Shown: positions 2,058 to 61,818 of the stretch, piece after piece
Layout of the letters: the number at the start of each line of letters is the position of its first letter
Numbering within the stretch: position 1 is the first letter of the stretch
Assembly: GCF_007197755.1 (NCBI RefSeq)
Contig: NZ_CP041636.1
Location: 496,001-560,000 of the forward strand
Length of the DNA: 64,000 bases
From: Ferrovibrio terrae
GTDB lineage: Bacteria > Pseudomonadota > Alphaproteobacteria > Ferrovibrionales > Ferrovibrionaceae
Reading direction: 5' to 3'
Notes under the pieces: model-generated
Told to the model about the DNA's origin: nothing
The model's input: only the letters and a program-made list of their open reading frames with translations
Database searches by the model: none
Translations under genes and position numbers: made by a program

Positions 2058-2852
2058 ATGATCGAGACACTCACCCGCACCGTGCAGCCCGCCATCACCG
2101 TGGCCGGCCTTGCCAAGACCTACGGCGGCACCGACAAGCCGGTGCATGCCGTGGCCGGGATCGACTTCCATGTGCCGGCCGGCAGCGTCACCGCACTGCT
2201 GGGCGGCAACGGCGCCGGCAAGACCACCACCATCGCCATGCTGCTCGGCCTGCTCAAACCCACGGCGGGCAGCATCCGCATCCTCGATACCGACATGCTG
2301 CGCGACCGGCACCATGTGCTGCCACGGCTAAATTTCTCCTCGCCTTACGTCGATCTGCCACATCGCCTGACCGTGCGGCAGAACCTGATGGTCTTCGCCG
2401 GGCTCTACGCCGTGTCGCAGGCGCCCAAGCGCATCGAGCAGCTGGCCGAGGAACTAAATTTCGCCACGCTGCTCGATCGCCCCGCCGGCGCGCTGTCGGC
2501 CGGCCAGAAAACCCGCGTGGCACTGGCCAAGGCGCTGATCAACCAGCCGGATGTGCTGCTGCTGGACGAGCCGACCGCCTCGCTGGATCCTGACACCGCC
2601 GACTGGGTGCGCAGCCTGCTGGAGAAGTATCGCAAGGAACGCGGCATCACCATCCTGCTCGCCTCGCATAACATGGGCGAGGTCGAACGGCTCTGCGACC
2701 AGGTGCTGATGATGAAGCAGGGTCGCATCGTGGATCGCGGTACCGCGCCGGATCTGGTGGCGAAATACGGCCGGCAGACTCTGGAACAGGTCTTCCTCGA
2801 TATCGCGCGCGGCCAGGGCAGGGCCGCCGAACTGAACGAGGTGCCGGCATGA
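2058..2852 (+). CDS. ABC-2 type exporter, ATP-binding subunit
   Basis: ATPase of an ABC-2 export system. The Walker A motif is GGNGAGKTTT near residue 50, the signature reads LSAGQ (one change from LSGGQ), Walker B is LLLDEPTASLDP and the switch histidine is in LASHNM. The protein is 264 residues, normal for this class (NodI/CcmA-like). It overlaps the start of the permease gene by four bases (ATGA), so the two subunits are translationally coupled and almost certainly work together. The cargo is unknown: nothing in the neighbourhood names it, and NodIJ-like or drug/polysaccharide exporters are equally possible. Confidence 0.92.
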   Translation: MIETLTRTVQPAITVAGLAKTYGGTDKPVHAVAGIDFHVPAGSVTALLGGNGAGKTTTIAMLLGLLKPTAGSIRILDTDMLRDRHHVLPRLNFSSPYVDLPHRLTVRQNLMVFAGLYAVSQAPKRIEQLAEELNFATLLDRPAGALSAGQKTRVALAKALINQPDVLLLDEPTASLDPDTADWVRSLLEKYRKERGITILLASHNMGEVERLCDQVLMMKQGRIVDRGTAPDLVAKYGRQTLEQVFLDIARGQGRAAELNEVPA

Positions 2853-3658
2853 TGCAGGACATCAGCTGCAGCCTGCAGCGCATCTTCGCCATGCTGCGCC
2901 GGCACTGGTATCTGCTGTCGGGGTCGTGGACGCGCATCGTGGAGCTGATCTACTGGCCCGCCGTGCAGATGATCATGTGGGGTTTTCTCACCCAGTTCCT
3001 CGCCAGCAAGACCTCGTATGTGGCGCAGGCCTTCGGCGTCTTCCTCGCCGGCATGATGCTGTGGGATTCGATGTTCCGCGTGCAGCTCGGCGTGGCGATC
3101 TCCTTCCTCGAGGAAATGTGGTCGCGCAATCTGGGTAACCTGTTCGTCAGCCCGCTGCGGCCTGGTGAATTCGCCACCTCGGTGCTGCTGATGGGCCTGC
3201 TGCGCACGCTGGTCGGCATGGTCCCGGTCAGCTTCATGGCCTGGTGGTTCTTCGATTTCTCGGTCTACGCCATGGGGCTGGCGCTGGCCGGCTTTTTCTT
3301 CAGTCTGATCATGTTCGGCTGGGCCATCGGCATTTCCGTCTGCGGGCTGATCATGCGTCATGGCCTGGGCGCCGAAAGCGCCGCCTGGGGCGCGATGTTC
3401 CTGATCCTGCCGGTCGCCGCCGTCTATTATCCGGTCACGGTGCTGCCGGGCTGGCTGCAGGTGGTCGCCTGGTCACTGCCGCCGGCCTATGTCTTCGAGG
3501 GCATGCGTGCGCTGCTGGTGGACGGCATCCTGCGCACCGACCTGCTGATCGGCGCCTTTGCCCTGAATGTGCTCTATCTCGCGCTCGGCTTCTGGGCCTT
3601 CCTCGCCTTCTTCGAGTCCGCGCGCCGCCGCGGCCAGCTACTGGGCCAGGGTGAGTAA
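2849..3658 (+). CDS. ABC-2 type exporter, permease subunit
   Basis: Membrane subunit paired with the preceding ATPase, 269 residues with about six hydrophobic helices. The later part contains the ABC-2 family pattern of a polar segment (LPVAAVYYPVTVLPGWLQ) followed by PPAYVFEGMRALL, the conserved signature region of NodJ/DrrB-type permeases. It starts within the stop codon of the ATPase gene. Its last 21 bases overlap the 3' end of the convergent DUF2306 gene. Cargo unknown. Confidence 0.9.
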   Translation: MMQDISCSLQRIFAMLRRHWYLLSGSWTRIVELIYWPAVQMIMWGFLTQFLASKTSYVAQAFGVFLAGMMLWDSMFRVQLGVAISFLEEMWSRNLGNLFVSPLRPGEFATSVLLMGLLRTLVGMVPVSFMAWWFFDFSVYAMGLALAGFFFSLIMFGWAIGISVCGLIMRHGLGAESAAWGAMFLILPVAAVYYPVTVLPGWLQVVAWSLPPAYVFEGMRALLVDGILRTDLLIGAFALNVLYLALGFWAFLAFFESARRRGQLLGQGE

Positions 3659-48279: not shown

Positions 48280-49805
<1,526 letters not shown>

Positions 49806-49806
<1 letters not shown>

Positions 49807-50366
49807 CACGCAACACCTTTCATGGCGGTCTTCAGATTATTGAGCTTGGTGAGGACCGACGCATCGATCATGCGCGATCCGAATTTGACGATCAGGCCGC
49901 CGATCAGCGAGGGATCGACCTTGGCGTTGATCACGACATTGCCGGCGGAAGCCGACGACAACGAAGACTTGATCTGGGCGAGCTGCGCGTCGTTCAGCGC
50001 CACGGCCGAGACGACGTCCGCGATGGCTTCGCCGCGATGATGGCTGAGCAGCTTCCTGAAGCCGGCAATCACTTCAGCCAGCACGAAGAGGCGGCGGTTG
50101 GCGGCGGCCACACCGAGGAAACGGCGGACCAGATCGCTCATGCCGGCCTTGTCGGCGACGGCGGCGATCGCCTTGGCCTGGTCTTCGCGGCTGAACACCG
50201 GCGAGCGGACCAGACGGACAAGATCGGCCGATCCGGCCAGCATGGCCGAAAGCTGATCGAGATCCTTTGCGACGGCATCGAGCTGACCGGCGTCACGCGC
50301 CAGATCGAACAGCGCGGTCGCATAACGGCCGGCAATGCCGGTAACGAGCGAGGTTTCCTGAGCCAC
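49806..50366 (-). CDS. atpH: ATP synthase F1 subunit delta
   Basis: Peripheral-stalk subunit of 186 residues. Recognisable features are [20 protein letters not shown] near the N-terminus, [21 protein letters not shown] in the middle, and the C-terminal [30 protein letters not shown] start at 50366 follows an AGAAGGGG ribosome-binding site. It is the first gene of the operon; in many alphaproteobacteria priA lies upstream, but here an HTH gene and repeats do. Confidence 0.95.
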
Positions 50367-50727
50367 GAAAGCCCCTTCTTCTTCATGGACCGGAACATCG
50401 GGACGGGACTCGCCGCATCTGTTTGCGGCCAGCCTCCCGACGCTCCACTTAAGACGTTGGCAGACTTAAGGAATTTTCGGGGAAGCTATAGCTTTTTAAC
50501 GGCCCCCCCGGCGCGAAAGCCGCGTTTAGTTAGCATACGGGTATTAGCGGCGCAACGGGCAGCGCCGCACTGCGGACCAGCCCTTTTGTCGCAGTGCATC
50601 CAGACGGCGCCGCAGGGTGCTCCGGCGCGCTTTTCCGCCGCGTTGTGCAACCTGATGTGTCCGGTTTCATCCCGTTTGACGGCCAGTTCCGTCCCGTTCG
50701 ATCCCGTTGCGGCCTGTTTCGTCCTGT
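50367..50727. other. Intergenic region upstream of the atp operon
   Basis: This 361-base stretch carries the promoter and leader of atpH on the minus strand. Seen in it are two ACTTAAG copies 17 bases apart (50447-50453 and 50464-50470), a perfect 12-base palindrome AAGCTATAGCTT at 50483-50494 and, from 50659 on, the 10-base tandem array. Small open frames in it have no recognisable content and I regard them as non-coding. Confidence 0.55.
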
Positions 50728-50760
50728 TTAAGCCTGTTCCGTCCCGTTTTGTCCCGTTTG
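50659..50760. repeat. 10-base-phased tandem repeat array across the 3' end of the HTH gene
   Basis: Ten units follow the pattern NNCC(C/T/A/G)GTTNN on the plus strand (AACNGG core on the minus strand). Eight consecutive units from 50681 to 50760 start exactly ten bases apart, and two more (50659 and 50669) are in the same phase but offset by two bases. Six of the ten contain CCCGTT or CCTGTT followed by T. The array covers the last coding bases and stop codon (50728-50730) of the helix-turn-helix gene and 70 bases beyond. Because ten is not a multiple of three, loss or gain of a unit would shift the reading frame. Confidence 0.8.
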
Positions 50761-51279
50761 AGCCAGCCTCTGCCGCGGCTTGGGACGTGCCGGGGTGCGA
50801 ACGGCCTCGGCCCATTGTTCGCCCAGCGTGGCGCGGAATTCGCGGTTCAGATTGAGTTTTTCGCCCAGCCACTGCAGCAGGCGCGGATCGAGGGTGTGGG
50901 CCTGGCGCTGCAGCTGGCGCGTGGTGTCCTCGCCCAGCGCCGCGAACCGCAGCCGGGCCGACAGTTTCATCCGCTCGACCTCGCGGTCGATCCGGTGCCG
51001 GAATTTGGCCGAACGACGCAGATTGCGCAGGATACGCTCCGGCTCGCAGCCGAGTGTGGTCGCGGTCGCTTCAACCGTGGCGCCACCGGCGATCAGCTGC
51101 GCCGCCCGGCCCCAGTTCACTTTCTTCCAGTGCCGGCGGTTTCCCGTCGCGGCTTGTTGAGGCACGGGCTGGGCCGGCGGCTGCCAGCCGATGGCCTTGT
51201 TGAAAGCATCCCGAGCCGCAATCAGTTCGGCATCGGCGGGATTATTCTCATCGAGCAATGGTTTATGGCGGTTTTCCAT
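50728..51279 (-). CDS. Predicted helix-turn-helix protein, unrecognised
   Basis: A 183-residue basic protein. Residues about 55-100 look like a helix-turn-helix: NWGRAAQLIAGGATVEATA, then TLGCEPERILRNLRRSAKF, similar in layout to small-terminase or resolvase-type DNA-binding domains. After it comes a helical, arginine-rich region (DREVERMKLSARLRFAALGE) and a C-terminal tail RLAQTGQNGTEQA encoded by the 10-base repeat array. I do not recognise a family. An AT-rich probable promoter region lies upstream at 51318-51360. It may bind the neighbouring repeats, but that is a guess. Confidence 0.6.
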   Translation of the reverse strand: MENRHKPLLDENNPADAELIAARDAFNKAIGWQPPAQPVPQQAATGNRRHWKKVNWGRAAQLIAGGATVEATATTLGCEPERILRNLRRSAKFRHRIDREVERMKLSARLRFAALGEDTTRQLQRQAHTLDPRLLQWLGEKLNLNREFRATLGEQWAEAVRTPARPKPRQRLAQTGQNGTEQA

Positions 51280-51395
51280 GATCCTGCCTCTGTGGCGACG
51301 TGGATTTGCTGGTCCAGTTTAGCAGAAAAATTAGAACAATTATAGTATAATGTGATTTAAAACCTATACTCACAAATGTCCCCGCAGCTGTCATC

Positions 51396-51470
51396 GTCAC
51401 CCCGGGCTTGACCCGGGGTCGCATTTTCCTGGCGGTGAAAAAATGGGATGCCGCTCAAGGCGGCATGACG
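51396..51470. repeat. Dispersed palindromic (REP/BIME-like) element, copy 2
   Basis: Two hairpins: ACCCCGGG-CTTGA-CCCGGGGT at 51399-51419, identical to copy 1, and ATGCCGC-TCAAG-GCGGCAT at 51448-51466. The element ends five bases before the glpK stop codon region and may serve as the 3' end of the glpK transcript. Confidence 0.65.
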
Positions 51471-51474
51471 TGGC

Positions 51475-52959
51475 TCAGCGCGTCAGCACGCGCTGCACGG
51501 CCTTCTGCCAGCCGGCATAAAGCTGGGCGCGCGCGGCCGCATTCATGCGCGGCTCGAAGCGGCGCTCGCAATGCCAGCCATAGGCCACGGCGTCCAGGCC
51601 GGCATAGACGCCGGTGGCAAGCCCGGCGAGATAGGCGGCGCCGAGCGCCGTGGTTTCGATCACGCGCGGACGTTCGACCGCGACATCCAGCATGTCGGCC
51701 AGGAACTGGCAGAGCCAGTCATTCGCCACCATGCCGCCATCGACGCGGATCGCCGCCGGCGCCGGCGCGCCATCGGCCTTCATCGCCGCGGTGAGATCGC
51801 GCGTCTGGTAGCCGACCGATTCCAGCGTGGCGCGGGCAATGTGAGCGCGACCCGCATCGAGCGTGAGGCCGAGGATGGCGGCGCGCGCATCGGAATCCCA
51901 GTAGGGCGCCCCCAGGCCGACGAAGGCCGGCACCATATAGACGCCATGGTTTTCCGGCACTTGCGCCGCCAGCGTGGCGGTTTCGGCCGCGCCCTCGACG
52001 ATCTTCAATCCGTCGCGCAGCCATTTGACAGCCGCGCCCGCGACGAAGATCGAGCCTTCCAGCGCGTAGGTGGTCTTGCCATTGAGCCTGTAGGCAACAG
52101 TCGTGAGCAGGCGGTTGTTCGACAGCACCGGCTTGTCGCCGATATTGACCAGCGCGAAACAGCCGGTGCCATAGGTGGATTTCACCATGCCGGGCTGGAA
52201 ACAGGCTTGTCCGAAGGTAGCGGCCTGCTGGTCGCCGGCGATGCCAGTGACCGGTACGGCATGGCCGAGGATGTCAGCAGAGGCCACGCCGAATTCGCCG
52301 CTGCAATCCAGCACACGCGGCAGCATGGCCGCCGGGACGTTGAAGATTTTCAGCAGCACCTCGTCCCAGCTTTGCGCGCCGATATCGAACAGCATGGTGC
52401 GCGAGGCATTGGTGGCATCGGTGGCATGCACCTTACCGCCGGTGAGGCGGAACAGCAGATAAGAGTCGATGGTGCCGAAGCAGAGGTCGCCCTTCTCGGC
52501 CCGGGCGCGTGCACCCGGCACGTTGTCGAGCAGCCAGGCAATCTTGGTGGCGGAGAAATAGCTGTCGATCAGCAGGCCGGTTTTCTGCTGCACGATATGA
52601 CTGAGGCCATCGGCGACTTTCTGCCGGCAGAGTGCGGCCGTGCGGCGATCCTGCCAGACGATGGCGCGATGGATCGGGCGGCCGGTATCGCGTTCCCAGA
52701 CCACGGTGGTTTCGCGCTGGTTGGTAATGCCGATGCCGGCGATGTCGCTGCCGCGCAAAGAGGCCTTGGCGACCGCCTCGCGCATCAGGCTCTGCACATC
52801 GCGCCAGATTTCCTCGGCATCATGCTCCACCCAGCCATCGGCCGGATAATGCTGGGTCAGTTCCTTCTGCGCGGTGGCGACCGGCAGGCCCGCGGCATCG
52901 AAGACGATGGCGCGGCTCGACGTGGTGCCCTGGTCGATGGCGAGGATGTATTTCGGCAT
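51475..52959 (-). CDS. glpK: Glycerol kinase
   Basis: FGGY-family kinase, 494 residues, converting glycerol to glycerol-3-phosphate. The N-terminal phosphate motif is [15 protein letters not shown]. Also seen are [37 protein letters not shown], then [11 protein letters not shown] and [19 protein letters not shown] near the C-terminus. It is the last gene of eda-DUF1272-glpK, with ten bases between DUF1272 and glpK. No glpF, glpD or glpR is seen nearby. Confidence 0.96.
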
Positions 52960-56475: not shown

Positions 56476-57155
56476 GAGCGGAACAGCCTCGTATACTGGG
56501 TTTCGTGCATCATAGAGGTGAGATCGACCATCGGCGAGGCCGTGCCGCAGTCTTCCAGCGCACAGGCCAGCGCGCAGGGCACGATGCTCCCGACCACCGG
56601 CATCAGATTGCTGAGCGTGCGCTGGCCATCGGTCTGTCCGAGCGGGATCAGGCGCACGGCGGCCGAGACGAGGTTGGCGGCAAAGGCATGCAGATAGGCC
56701 GCCAGCACGGTTTCGACGCCGAGTTTATGCGCGCCGGCCGCGACGCCGACGGCGACGCAGAGCGGCACGGGTTTGTCGTCGCGTAAAGCGGCGAAGGCAT
56801 CGAGTGTGGAAGACTGGCCCCAGGCGGCGCGGGTGACGGAGAGATACGAGCCGCCCTGCTGCGTGCTTTCCAGCGCCATTTCGGTGGTGCCGCGCCAGGC
56901 CGCTGCCAGATCGGCCAGTTCATCGAGCCGCGCCATATCGTCGCCGGCGGCATAGGCTTCCTTCAGCAGCACTGCATCGACCCAGCCTGCGCCATGGCGC
57001 AGGATATGCGCAATCCATTGGGTGAGCGTGGTGACATTGGTAACCCGGCCGGTCTCGACCGCATATTCGACGCCGTGGCTGTAGGAAAAAGCGCCGATCG
57101 GATAGCTCGGCGAGAACCAGGCCAGCAGGCGATACAGCTCAGTGCTTGTGGTCAT
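56472..57155 (-). CDS. ureF: Urease accessory protein UreF
   Basis: A 227-residue all-helical urease chaperone: [52 protein letters not shown] and [14 protein letters not shown] are family marks. The ATG at 57155 lies inside the 3' end of ureE (17-base overlap). The upstream open extension runs through the His-rich tail of ureE in another frame and is not used. Stop overlaps ureG. Confidence 0.94.
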
Positions 57156-57720
57156 GGTCGTGGTAGTGATCGTGCTCATGGCCGGGGTCATCGGCATGAG
57201 GATACACATGGCTATGGCCGCCATGACTATGTTCCTGCTTGCCGTAGCGCGAGCCGAGACCATAGGGATGCGAGGGATCGTGGTTGTGCTGGCCGTAGGC
57301 GCCGCCTTCGGGATCGAAGGGCGCGTCCACCGCCTTCACCTCGGCGCCGAGACCCTTCAGCATGTCGACGATCACATGATCGTCGCGGATGAGAATGCAA
57401 TCCGCGTGAATTTCAGCGGGAAGGTGCCGGTTGCCGAGATGCCAGGCCAGCCGCGCCAGCAGCTGGGCCGAGGCGGCGCGCACTTCGATCAATGGCTCGG
57501 GCGCGGCCTGCACCTCGATATAGCCGCCGCTCTCGAGCTTCAGCCCGTCGCCGTGTCGCAGCACAGTCGCCTCGGAAAGATCGAGCAGGAAAGTGCTGCC
57601 GTCATCGGCGGTGAGCCGGATGCGGCGGCGATGCCGGTCGTGATGCGCCAGCGTGACGGTGGCGCGGCGTTCAGGCGCGGGCCAGTGGCCGGCGGGCGTA
57701 ACGGAGATTGCCTTCAACAT
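57139..57720 (-). CDS. ureE: Urease accessory nickel chaperone UreE
   Basis: A 193-residue metallochaperone. The N-terminal domain includes RATVTLAHHDRHRRRIRLTA and DGSTFLLDLSEATVL, then WHLGNRHLPAEIHADCILIR with the conserved metal-binding histidine. The C-terminal 45 residues are histidine-rich (HSHGGHSHVYPHADD, then [13 protein letters not shown]), binding several nickel ions. A palindromic element separates it from ureC. ATG 57720 is preferred over one four codons upstream. Confidence 0.94.
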   Translation of the reverse strand: MLKAISVTPAGHWPAPERRATVTLAHHDRHRRRIRLTADDGSTFLLDLSEATVLRHGDGLKLESGGYIEVQAAPEPLIEVRAASAQLLARLAWHLGNRHLPAEIHADCILIRDDHVIVDMLKGLGAEVKAVDAPFDPEGGAYGQHNHDPSHPYGLGSRYGKQEHSHGGHSHVYPHADDPGHEHDHYHDHDHKH

Positions 57721-60990: not shown

Positions 60991-61818
60991 TCAGCGCCCC
61001 AGATAGACTTCGATGACGCGTGGATCATTCTGCACGTGATCCACCGTGCCTTCCGACAGCACGCTGCCTTCATGCAGCACGGTGACCTTGGCGCCGAGAT
61101 CGCGCACGAATTCCATATCGTGCTCCACGACGACCAGCGTGCGTTCGCCCTTGAGCGTCAGGATCAGTTCGGCGGTCTGCTTGGTCTCAGCATCGGTCAT
61201 GCCGGCGACCGGCTCGTCCAGCAATATAAGTTGAGTGTCCTGCACCAGGAGCATGCCGATCTCGAGCCACTGCTTCTGGCCATGGCTGAGCGAGCCGGCA
61301 ATATCCTCGACCTTGGTTTCCAGGCCGACAGTATCGAGCGCCCAGGCAATGCGGTCGAGCGCCTCGGAATTCAGCCGGCCGAGCAGGGTTTTCCAGGCGC
61401 CGCGCGCCGACTTCAGCGCCAGCTCGAAATTCTCGAACACCGTGAGATTCTCGAACACGGTGGGCTTCTGGAATTTGCGGCCGATGCCGAGATTGGCAAT
61501 CGCCACTTCATCCAGCCTGGTCAGGTCGATGCGGCCGGCGAACAGCACCTCGCCGGCATCCGGCTTGGTCTTGCCGGTGATGATATCCATCATCGTGGTC
61601 TTGCCGGCGCCGTTCGGCCCGATGATGGTGCGCAACTCGCCCGGCGCCACCATGAGCGCGAGATTGTTGATCGCCCTGAAGCCGTCGAAAGAGACAGAGA
61701 CACCATCGAGATAGAGTTGCGTATCCGAGACGCGGACCCTGTCGACCACGTCGGGCGAAAGGCCGGCGGTGGCGGGCTGCAGCAGCGGCGACGGCAATGG
61801 CATGGCGGGGCGTTTCAT
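60991..61818 (-). CDS. urtD: Urea ABC transporter ATP-binding protein UrtD
   Basis: A 275-residue LivG-type ATPase: Walker A GPNGAGKTTMMDIITGKTKP, LSHGQKQWLEIGMLLVQDTQ, and LILLDEPVAGMTDAE; the LSHGQKQWLEIG signature distinguishes UrtD. Its ATG overlaps the urtC stop (TAATG). The unusual N-terminal 40 residues are not found in LivG. Confidence 0.95.
   Translation of the reverse strand: MKRPAMPLPSPLLQPATAGLSPDVVDRVRVSDTQLYLDGVSVSFDGFRAINNLALMVAPGELRTIIGPNGAGKTTMMDIITGKTKPDAGEVLFAGRIDLTRLDEVAIANLGIGRKFQKPTVFENLTVFENFELALKSARGAWKTLLGRLNSEALDRIAWALDTVGLETKVEDIAGSLSHGQKQWLEIGMLLVQDTQLILLDEPVAGMTDAETKQTAELILTLKGERTLVVVEHDMEFVRDLGAKVTVLHEGSVLSEGTVDHVQNDPRVIEVYLGR

Follow-up and report, generated by a model that had tools for sequence, protein, structure and literature searches.

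In Ferrovibrio terrae, the gene for a helix-turn-helix (HTH) protein located upstream of the ATP synthase operon ends in an array of ten short direct repeats phased with the DNA helix, and arrays of the same unit are dispersed over the chromosome. The gene and its array lie in the 64,000-nucleotide stretch analysed here (the window; contig NZ_CP041636.1, positions 496,001 to 560,000 of the forward strand). Other species of the genus carry related HTH genes and arrays of other units; the dispersed arrays of a genome match the units of its own HTH genes, and arrays occupy places common to several species, at which the unit type switches from one species to another. The reading that we favour, with a probability of roughly 60%, is that each HTH protein has a private array, repeated as a chromosome-wide set of sites along which an oligomer would be bound at one HTH per helical turn.

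The ten CCNGTT units of the window array begin on the plus strand at 50661, 50671, 50683, 50693, 50703, 50713, 50723, 50733, 50743 and 50753, with spacings of 10, 12 and then seven times 10 bases, so that eight units stand in strict 10-base register (50683-50758). An earlier inspection of the letters (the sequence-only reading) had likewise counted ten units with eight in register, but had set the register two bases off, at 50681-50760; it had correctly placed the array over the 3' end of the HTH gene and about 300 bases upstream of the atp operon. The distance to the atpH start at 50366 is 294 bases; three units lie within the coding part of the HTH gene, one across the stop codon and six past it. 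Tandem Repeats Finder reports the array with a period of 10 (9.9 copies, score 63) and a period of 30 (2.9 copies, score 85). The longest chain of CCNGTT at 10-base spacing in the window is 8, versus 1 (94 shuffles) or 2 (6 shuffles) in 100 dinucleotide-preserving shuffles. Among all XX.XXX words on the plus strand at spacings from 5 to 31, the array again gives the longest chain of the window (8) and also the next-longest (4, at spacing 20); the same word scan at spacing 10 gave chains of 2 or 3 in 60 shuffles.

The window array is more than a local duplication. Three phased CCNGTT units (with at most one mismatch) occur at ten separate places in the 4.26-Mb F. terrae genome (G000), the window included, and at none in the reversed control; the search for phased units elsewhere in the genome that the sequence-only reading had proposed was therefore positive. 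The comparison with relatives that it had also proposed gave a divided answer: the strict CCYGTT pattern, the form in which AACNGG was searched across the ten genomes of the genus, was found in one further genome out of 41 (F. terrae and 40 relatives, nine of them congeners), that of congener G002, whose fetched loci contain 21 AACNGG-type arrays, the HTH locus included, and at the corresponding places other congeners have arrays built from different units. A scan of the sequence collection for four phased CCNGTT units gave at least 120 stretches in genome contigs and 72 in viral contigs, from a wide range of phyla and contigs, the distribution expected when a degenerate pattern matches by chance. 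One CCNGTT array from another alphaproteobacterial order (L136; Desertibaculum subflavum, Sneathiellaceae) is situated just past a likely stop codon.

The HTH gene of the window belongs to a family in which arrays at the 3' end are the rule. Among 23 aligned HTH genes, 21 have a phased chain of a five-letter word near the stop codon that no more than 2 of 100 shuffles reached (searched from 280 bases ahead of the stop codon to 230 bases past it; spacing of 10/11 or of 21 bases, two tests for each gene). The unit types are AACNGG, TTGGC, ATAAG, CGAAC and a 21-base ACCTGASTC type: CGAAC units are found in paralogues before a clpB-like gene (identified by eye) in G000 and G002, AATAAG units in short HTH genes of 90-99 amino acids and in others, and 21-base units (ATAGACCTGAGTCNNNNCCGA) in a paralogue of G001. 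Tandem Repeats Finder independently gives periods of 10 and 21 in loci L286 and L288. The units of an array are diverged rather than identical, and depending on the family member the array sits within the open reading frame (ORF), across the stop codon or in the 3' flank. A profile search detected the family in three further genomes outside the genus; over the class, with up to ten candidates scored per genome, the matches total 5 of 241 genomes. By eye, a CCTATGG array follows the HTH match of G013 (another genus of the same family) on its 3' side, and a looser GGCCAA array follows that of G101; the chain finder returned pieces of 3 and 4 units in L374 and none in L373 with the word tried.

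The phase of the arrays is helical. Over all spacings from 5 to 41, with no period preset, the mean longest chain of a five-letter word peaks at 10/11, where it reaches 4.1 in the 23 HTH regions and 5.2 in a choice of 26 out of 62 dispersed stretches; smaller maxima follow at 20/21 (3.4 in both sets) and 30/31 (2.4 in both), over backgrounds of about 1.7-2.1 and 1.1-1.7, respectively. Gap counts come from an array finder that requires a neighbour at 10 or 11, the scan from 5 to 41 being the test without this requirement; the gaps are 10 (58 times), 11 (7) and 12 (1) in the AACNGG arrays of G000, and 11 and 10 in the ATAAG arrays of G001 (20 and 12) and G002 (23 and 11), with longer gaps of 20-22, 30, 33, 42 and 43 across all array sets. 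AACNGG arrays comprise 4-11 units of about 10 bp (7-11 units in G000).

The dispersed arrays of a genome match the units of its own HTH genes. TTGGC arrays were seen at the HTH genes of G005 and G008, and the ten genomes of the genus were therefore searched for three phased TTGGC units (at most one mismatch), which gave, with the HTH loci themselves counted, 23 matches in G005 (6 places; control 1), 39 in G008 (about 10 places; control 6), and 0-2 (controls 0-5) in the other eight genomes. A search at 10/11-base spacing for ATAAG units, which read CTTAT in the reverse sense, gave 9 matches in G000 (control 2), 63 in G001 (1), 72 in G002 (0), 40 in G003 (5), 29 in G005 (0), 10 in G009 (1) and 1 in G008 (0), with no match in G004, G006 or G007. 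When three unit types were tabulated by hand against the ten genomes, dispersed and HTH-linked arrays occurred together in 10 cells, an array only in 1, an HTH gene only in 1 and neither in 18 (p = 3.8e-6, a value that, like the others given here, overstates independence because the copies of an element are related by descent). Two of the entries are thin (the ATAAG entry of G005 is a repeated ENK stretch in L284, read by eye and negative in the stretch covered by the chain test, and the AACNGG entry of G008 depends on locus L323), and the one CTTAT match of G008 and the two TTGGC matches of G002, at one place, were scored as absent. CGAAC and ACCTGASTC units were counted within the fetched loci.

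The place stays and the array type switches between species. At the atp locus, identified by atpH in 9 of the 10 genomes (G009 has no atpH match), G002 has an HTH orthologue (59% identical) with an AACNGG-type unit likewise at its 3' end; G005 and G008 have an HTH gene and then 10-base arrays of RTTGGCYCNN and ATTGGCNATN units, and each has AACNGG units at a second HTH gene, beside a gene resembling glutathione S-transferase (neighbour read by eye). G001 has no HTH gene at this locus, which holds a promoter-like stretch and four 21-base units and a fifth, degenerate one, like those within its HTH gene at the clpB locus, and in G003, G004, G006 and G007 neither HTH gene nor array was seen in the 1.4 kb before atpH. 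In the G008 locus (L289) the HTH frame seems to be out of step with the upstream ATG, as in a pseudogene, a gene with another start or a sequencing error.

Grouping of the fetched loci by flanking proteins (more than 55% identity over at least 70 amino acids) gave 19 groups, nine of which have two or more unit types; a common junction for the arrays was read by eye in the atp, L040, L036/L384 and L322/L398 groups, and the L392/L387 group is weak. Beside one gene, five species have four kinds of array: AACNGG in G000, ATAAG in G001 and G002, TTGGC in G005 and TTTGG in G008. At this site the sequence leading up to the array (the leader) is nearly the same in G000 and G001 and the array is different; G003, G006 and G007 have the gene without the element, and G004 and G009 gave no match to the gene. 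By eye, the leader is kept while the array differs between L343 and L344, and between L322 (G008, TTGGC) and L398 (G002, ATAAG), which have in common the end of the upstream gene and a perfect GTTCN7GTTC box. Two loci are composite: in L323 (positions 2837-3039, G008) an AACNGG array is followed directly by a TTGGC array, and in L402 (positions 1331-1541, G002) a CGAAC array precedes an ATAAG array, as though in transit from one owner to another. Since it contains both unit types, L323 makes the L054/L323 pair an imperfect example of switching.

The dispersed arrays are intergenic: none of the 60 scored is within a predicted gene (genes were predicted by a home-made caller; of 64 loci, L038 and L326 had no array of four units, and 2 of the remaining 62 arrays, at locus edges, were dropped). 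A convergent gene is on the 3' side of 39 of the 60, and 23 are between convergent genes, compared with 5 of 51 gene pairs in the window (p = 4e-4) or, on a less favourable base, 43 of 205 adjacent pairs in the same loci, these pairs included.

Table 1. Features of the window around the phased array
Feature	Coordinates	Strand	Remarks
10-base phased array	50661..50758	-	ten units; CCNGTT on plus strand, AACNGG on minus strand (sense of HTH gene)
HTH gene, 183 amino acids	50728..51279	-	stop codon 50728-50730; family alignment A1
Promoter-like TATAATTGTTCT	51333..51344	-	form common to several dispersed elements
Spacer between array and atpH	50367..50660	-	site scan
atpH (ATP synthase delta subunit)	49806..50366	-	neighbour used to locate site

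The promoter-like sequence of Table 1 was not reported on the minus strand by a consensus promoter scan, and the scan of the spacer gave no terminator-like site on the minus strand. A single-sequence structure model of the window HTH protein is all-helical and of low confidence (mean predicted local distance difference test (pLDDT) score 60), the HTH region being modelled best. Tandem Repeats Finder reports further short tandem repeats in the window at 61429-61473 (18-base) and 57141-57188 (24-base).

Binding of the HTH proteins to the arrays is predicted from these associations. The window array would be the private binding site of the adjacent HTH protein and one site of a chromosome-wide set, and each of several HTH subfamilies in a genome may use a unit and a set of places particular to it. 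An HTH oligomer would bind cooperatively along roughly 40-120 bp of DNA, contacting a single face with one HTH at each helical turn, as in models of small-terminase rings; HTH motifs displayed one turn apart would find in the array a series of equivalent contacts along that face. Many arrays may close short intergenic transcription units, made up of a promoter-like leader, in part with LexA-like boxes, and then the array. Arrays at the 3' ends of HTH genes and of these short transcription units suggest that a bound array might act as a roadblock that ends the transcript. The HTH genes might then regulate themselves, convergent genes beyond an array might be insulated, and DNA damage might exert part of the control.

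The LexA-like boxes were counted within 300 bases upstream of the arrays: GTTCN7GTTC, which we take to be the alphaproteobacterial LexA box, occurs in 6 of 62 leaders, the palindromic form GAACN4GTTC, presumably not the usual one, in 19, and either box in 25, in each case compared with 0 of 122 control windows unmatched for intergenic position. A perfect GTTCN7GTTC is present in 5 of the 23 HTH genes (300 bases upstream to 150 bases inside). The excess of boxes supports the favoured reading; limits of this comparison and several other results weigh against that reading or parts of it. Leaders with GTTCN7GTTC are few, all 19 cases of GAACN4GTTC are related AACNGG elements of G000 and G002, and the window HTH gene has neither box intact (GTTCTAATTTTTCTG is mismatched at 3 of 8 positions). 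Since arrays between convergent genes are limited to the 23 noted above, insulation is no general account. The same shuffle test found no phased chain around the stop codons of L284 and L300, and Tandem Repeats Finder at its default threshold found no array in L285. L269 and L275 have a predicted recognition helix in common (DEDRIWRHLRKS) but different arrays. In the table of unit types, the cell with an array only is G009, which has ATAAG arrays at two places and no HTH match in a genome 72% complete, and the cell with an HTH gene only is G005, whose AACNGG gene (L286) has no dispersed counterpart by the strict pattern or in the fetched loci; in addition, no HTH gene with a matching unit was found for the TTTGGYCNAG arrays of G008 (L325, positions 3038-3117, and L326). 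A CTTGGCA/TGCCAAG hairpin in 21 leaders of G000 and G002 pairs in 82.6% of cells, versus 16-50% for slid versions, but its covariation is not above that of shuffles (mean pairing 81.8%; 175 of 500 reach the covariation score), and a structured leader RNA is therefore not claimed. A small protein encoded in the leader was rejected, its frame being broken by indels in L048 and L049 (read by eye).

Among alternatives, the arrays could be a selfish repeat population like that of REPIN-RAYT systems, in which a domesticated HTH gene copies its flanking array and the dispersed arrays are passengers. Both pair a single resident gene, flanked by one copy of the repeat, with many dispersed repeats; here the repeat types are mostly confined to genomes with the matching gene. 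RAYTs are described as single-copy, vertically inherited genes that keep their association with dispersed REPINs (PMC8049555). In favour of a selfish repeat, several sites are not common to species within the fetched loci, and a search of Pfam with the 23 family members (E ≤ 0.01), which reported HTH_23 (6 members), TnsD, DUF7739 and HTH_29 and nothing else, matched two members, below the family cut-off, to TnsD, the Tn7 target-selection protein. The same search, however, gave no match to a Y1/HUH transposase; the units are direct, phased repeats rather than palindromic REP units; and flanking genes, and by eye leaders, are kept while the unit type changes at common places. We consider this origin unlikely.

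RNA as the working molecule is the more improbable alternative: small RNAs would titrate a protein with the 3' repeat tail or pair with targets, with TTGGACATCGTGGAT as a seed against start-codon contexts. The leaders are promoter-like, a CATCGT-like motif is present in 41 of 62 leaders versus 26 of 122 control windows, and by eye its antisense reads TTCACGATGNCCAA; yet a helical period of 10.5 bases has no obvious meaning for a single-stranded RNA, the units turn over, and the covariation result given above applies here as well. Rfam gave no match at the elements: in 20 loci at gathering scores the three matches (transfer-messenger RNA twice, signal recognition particle RNA) are all away from arrays, and near the window array (49000-52000, E ≤ 5) matches are at chance level, none of them above the gathering score. 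A search for CsrA, the protein that GGA repeats would most readily suggest as a partner, gave no match in the ten genomes of the genus and recovered it in 3 of 14 named control genomes, E. coli among them; on the same result a CsrA sponge, suggested by the likeness of the unit form AACAGGACG to CsrB repeats, was rejected. On its other strand the leader motif of G000 and G002 (for example L036, positions 3086-3162, minus strand) reads as a start-codon-like context, TTCACGATGNCCAANAG, which may be a pairing seed or chance, and by eye the leaders of ATAAG arrays in G001 and G002 (L392, L397, L398, L401) carry, immediately ahead of the array, a TTTCACGGCGATGTTTCACGG-type motif that differs from the CATCGTG motif.

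Intrinsic curvature, slippage with no protein partner, or a phase-variable contingency locus, to which phased T or A runs in some units and the overlap of the window array with the stop codon might point, is very improbable, because an A-tract is missing from some unit types (GTTGGCTCCC, CGAAC), the arrays of one genome share units that accompany its HTH genes, arrays vary in position relative to the stop codon, units are diverged and no dispersed array was found inside a predicted gene. Of the two interpretations offered by the sequence-only reading, slippage is unsupported, and a binding array gains indirect support from recurrence in the genome, the peaks at 10/11, 20/21 and 30/31 and the unit types that follow the HTH genes.

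Compared with known systems, the proposed private arrays of HTH proteins combine familiar traits differently. MatP/matS, SlmA/SBS and Tus/Ter each consist of one protein with tens of chromosomal sites that are single and short, unlike the long phased arrays described here, which belong to several parallel protein families and switch between them. ParR/parC and plasmid iterons have direct repeats of about 10-11 bp along which a small protein oligomerises, but the neighbours of the window gene include no partition ATPase, the sites are many and chromosomal, and the protein is of the HTH rather than the ribbon-helix-helix class. The small terminase (TerS) and pac site of SPP1/SF6-like phages also involve an HTH protein, and the AACNGG arrays here have 4-11 units of about 10 bp; most small terminases of the pac type are described as assembling into rings of 8-11 subunits that carry their HTH motifs on the outside, adjacent HTHs are about one turn of B-DNA apart, some 100 bp of helicoidal DNA is suited to wrapping, and low sequence specificity is argued for the single HTH (PMC4737164). 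In contrast to TerS/pac, the arrays here are chromosomal, with many dispersed sites in unit-specific sets, and the window gene is flanked by atpH and an FGGY (glycerol-kinase-like) kinase gene rather than by a large terminase gene. Similarity to phrog_1482 (terminase small subunit) is marginal (E = 0.015 for L288, with no match for the other three of four proteins scanned), a profile search of the PDB with the family gave a best E of 0.03 to a protein that is not a terminase, and Foldseek with the poor structure model gave a best E of 0.037, viral-library matches being all above E = 0.03; the fold was for this reason not used as evidence. In view of the marginal sequence similarity and the poor model, TerS is a likeness in mechanism, not in membership. 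We can suggest only tentatively a multi-lane addressing in which small-terminase-like paralogues would each wrap about 100 bp of their own array in a ring and mark a common stock of chromosomal places, and in the course of evolution a place would change hands through replacement of its array while a DNA-damage-type promoter stays.

Searches of open-access PMC articles showed no account of such a protein-and-array system. If the reading of private arrays is true, this would be a new kind of bacterial protein-DNA partnership, apparently an undescribed protein-and-address system, in which each of several resident HTH proteins has a helix-phased repeat where its gene ends, together with a matching set of chromosomal sites, and in which the owners of sites switch between species. 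With several natural pairs of protein and array available, the rules of recognition, phase-dependent cooperativity and the joint rewriting of whole sets of sites would be directly testable.
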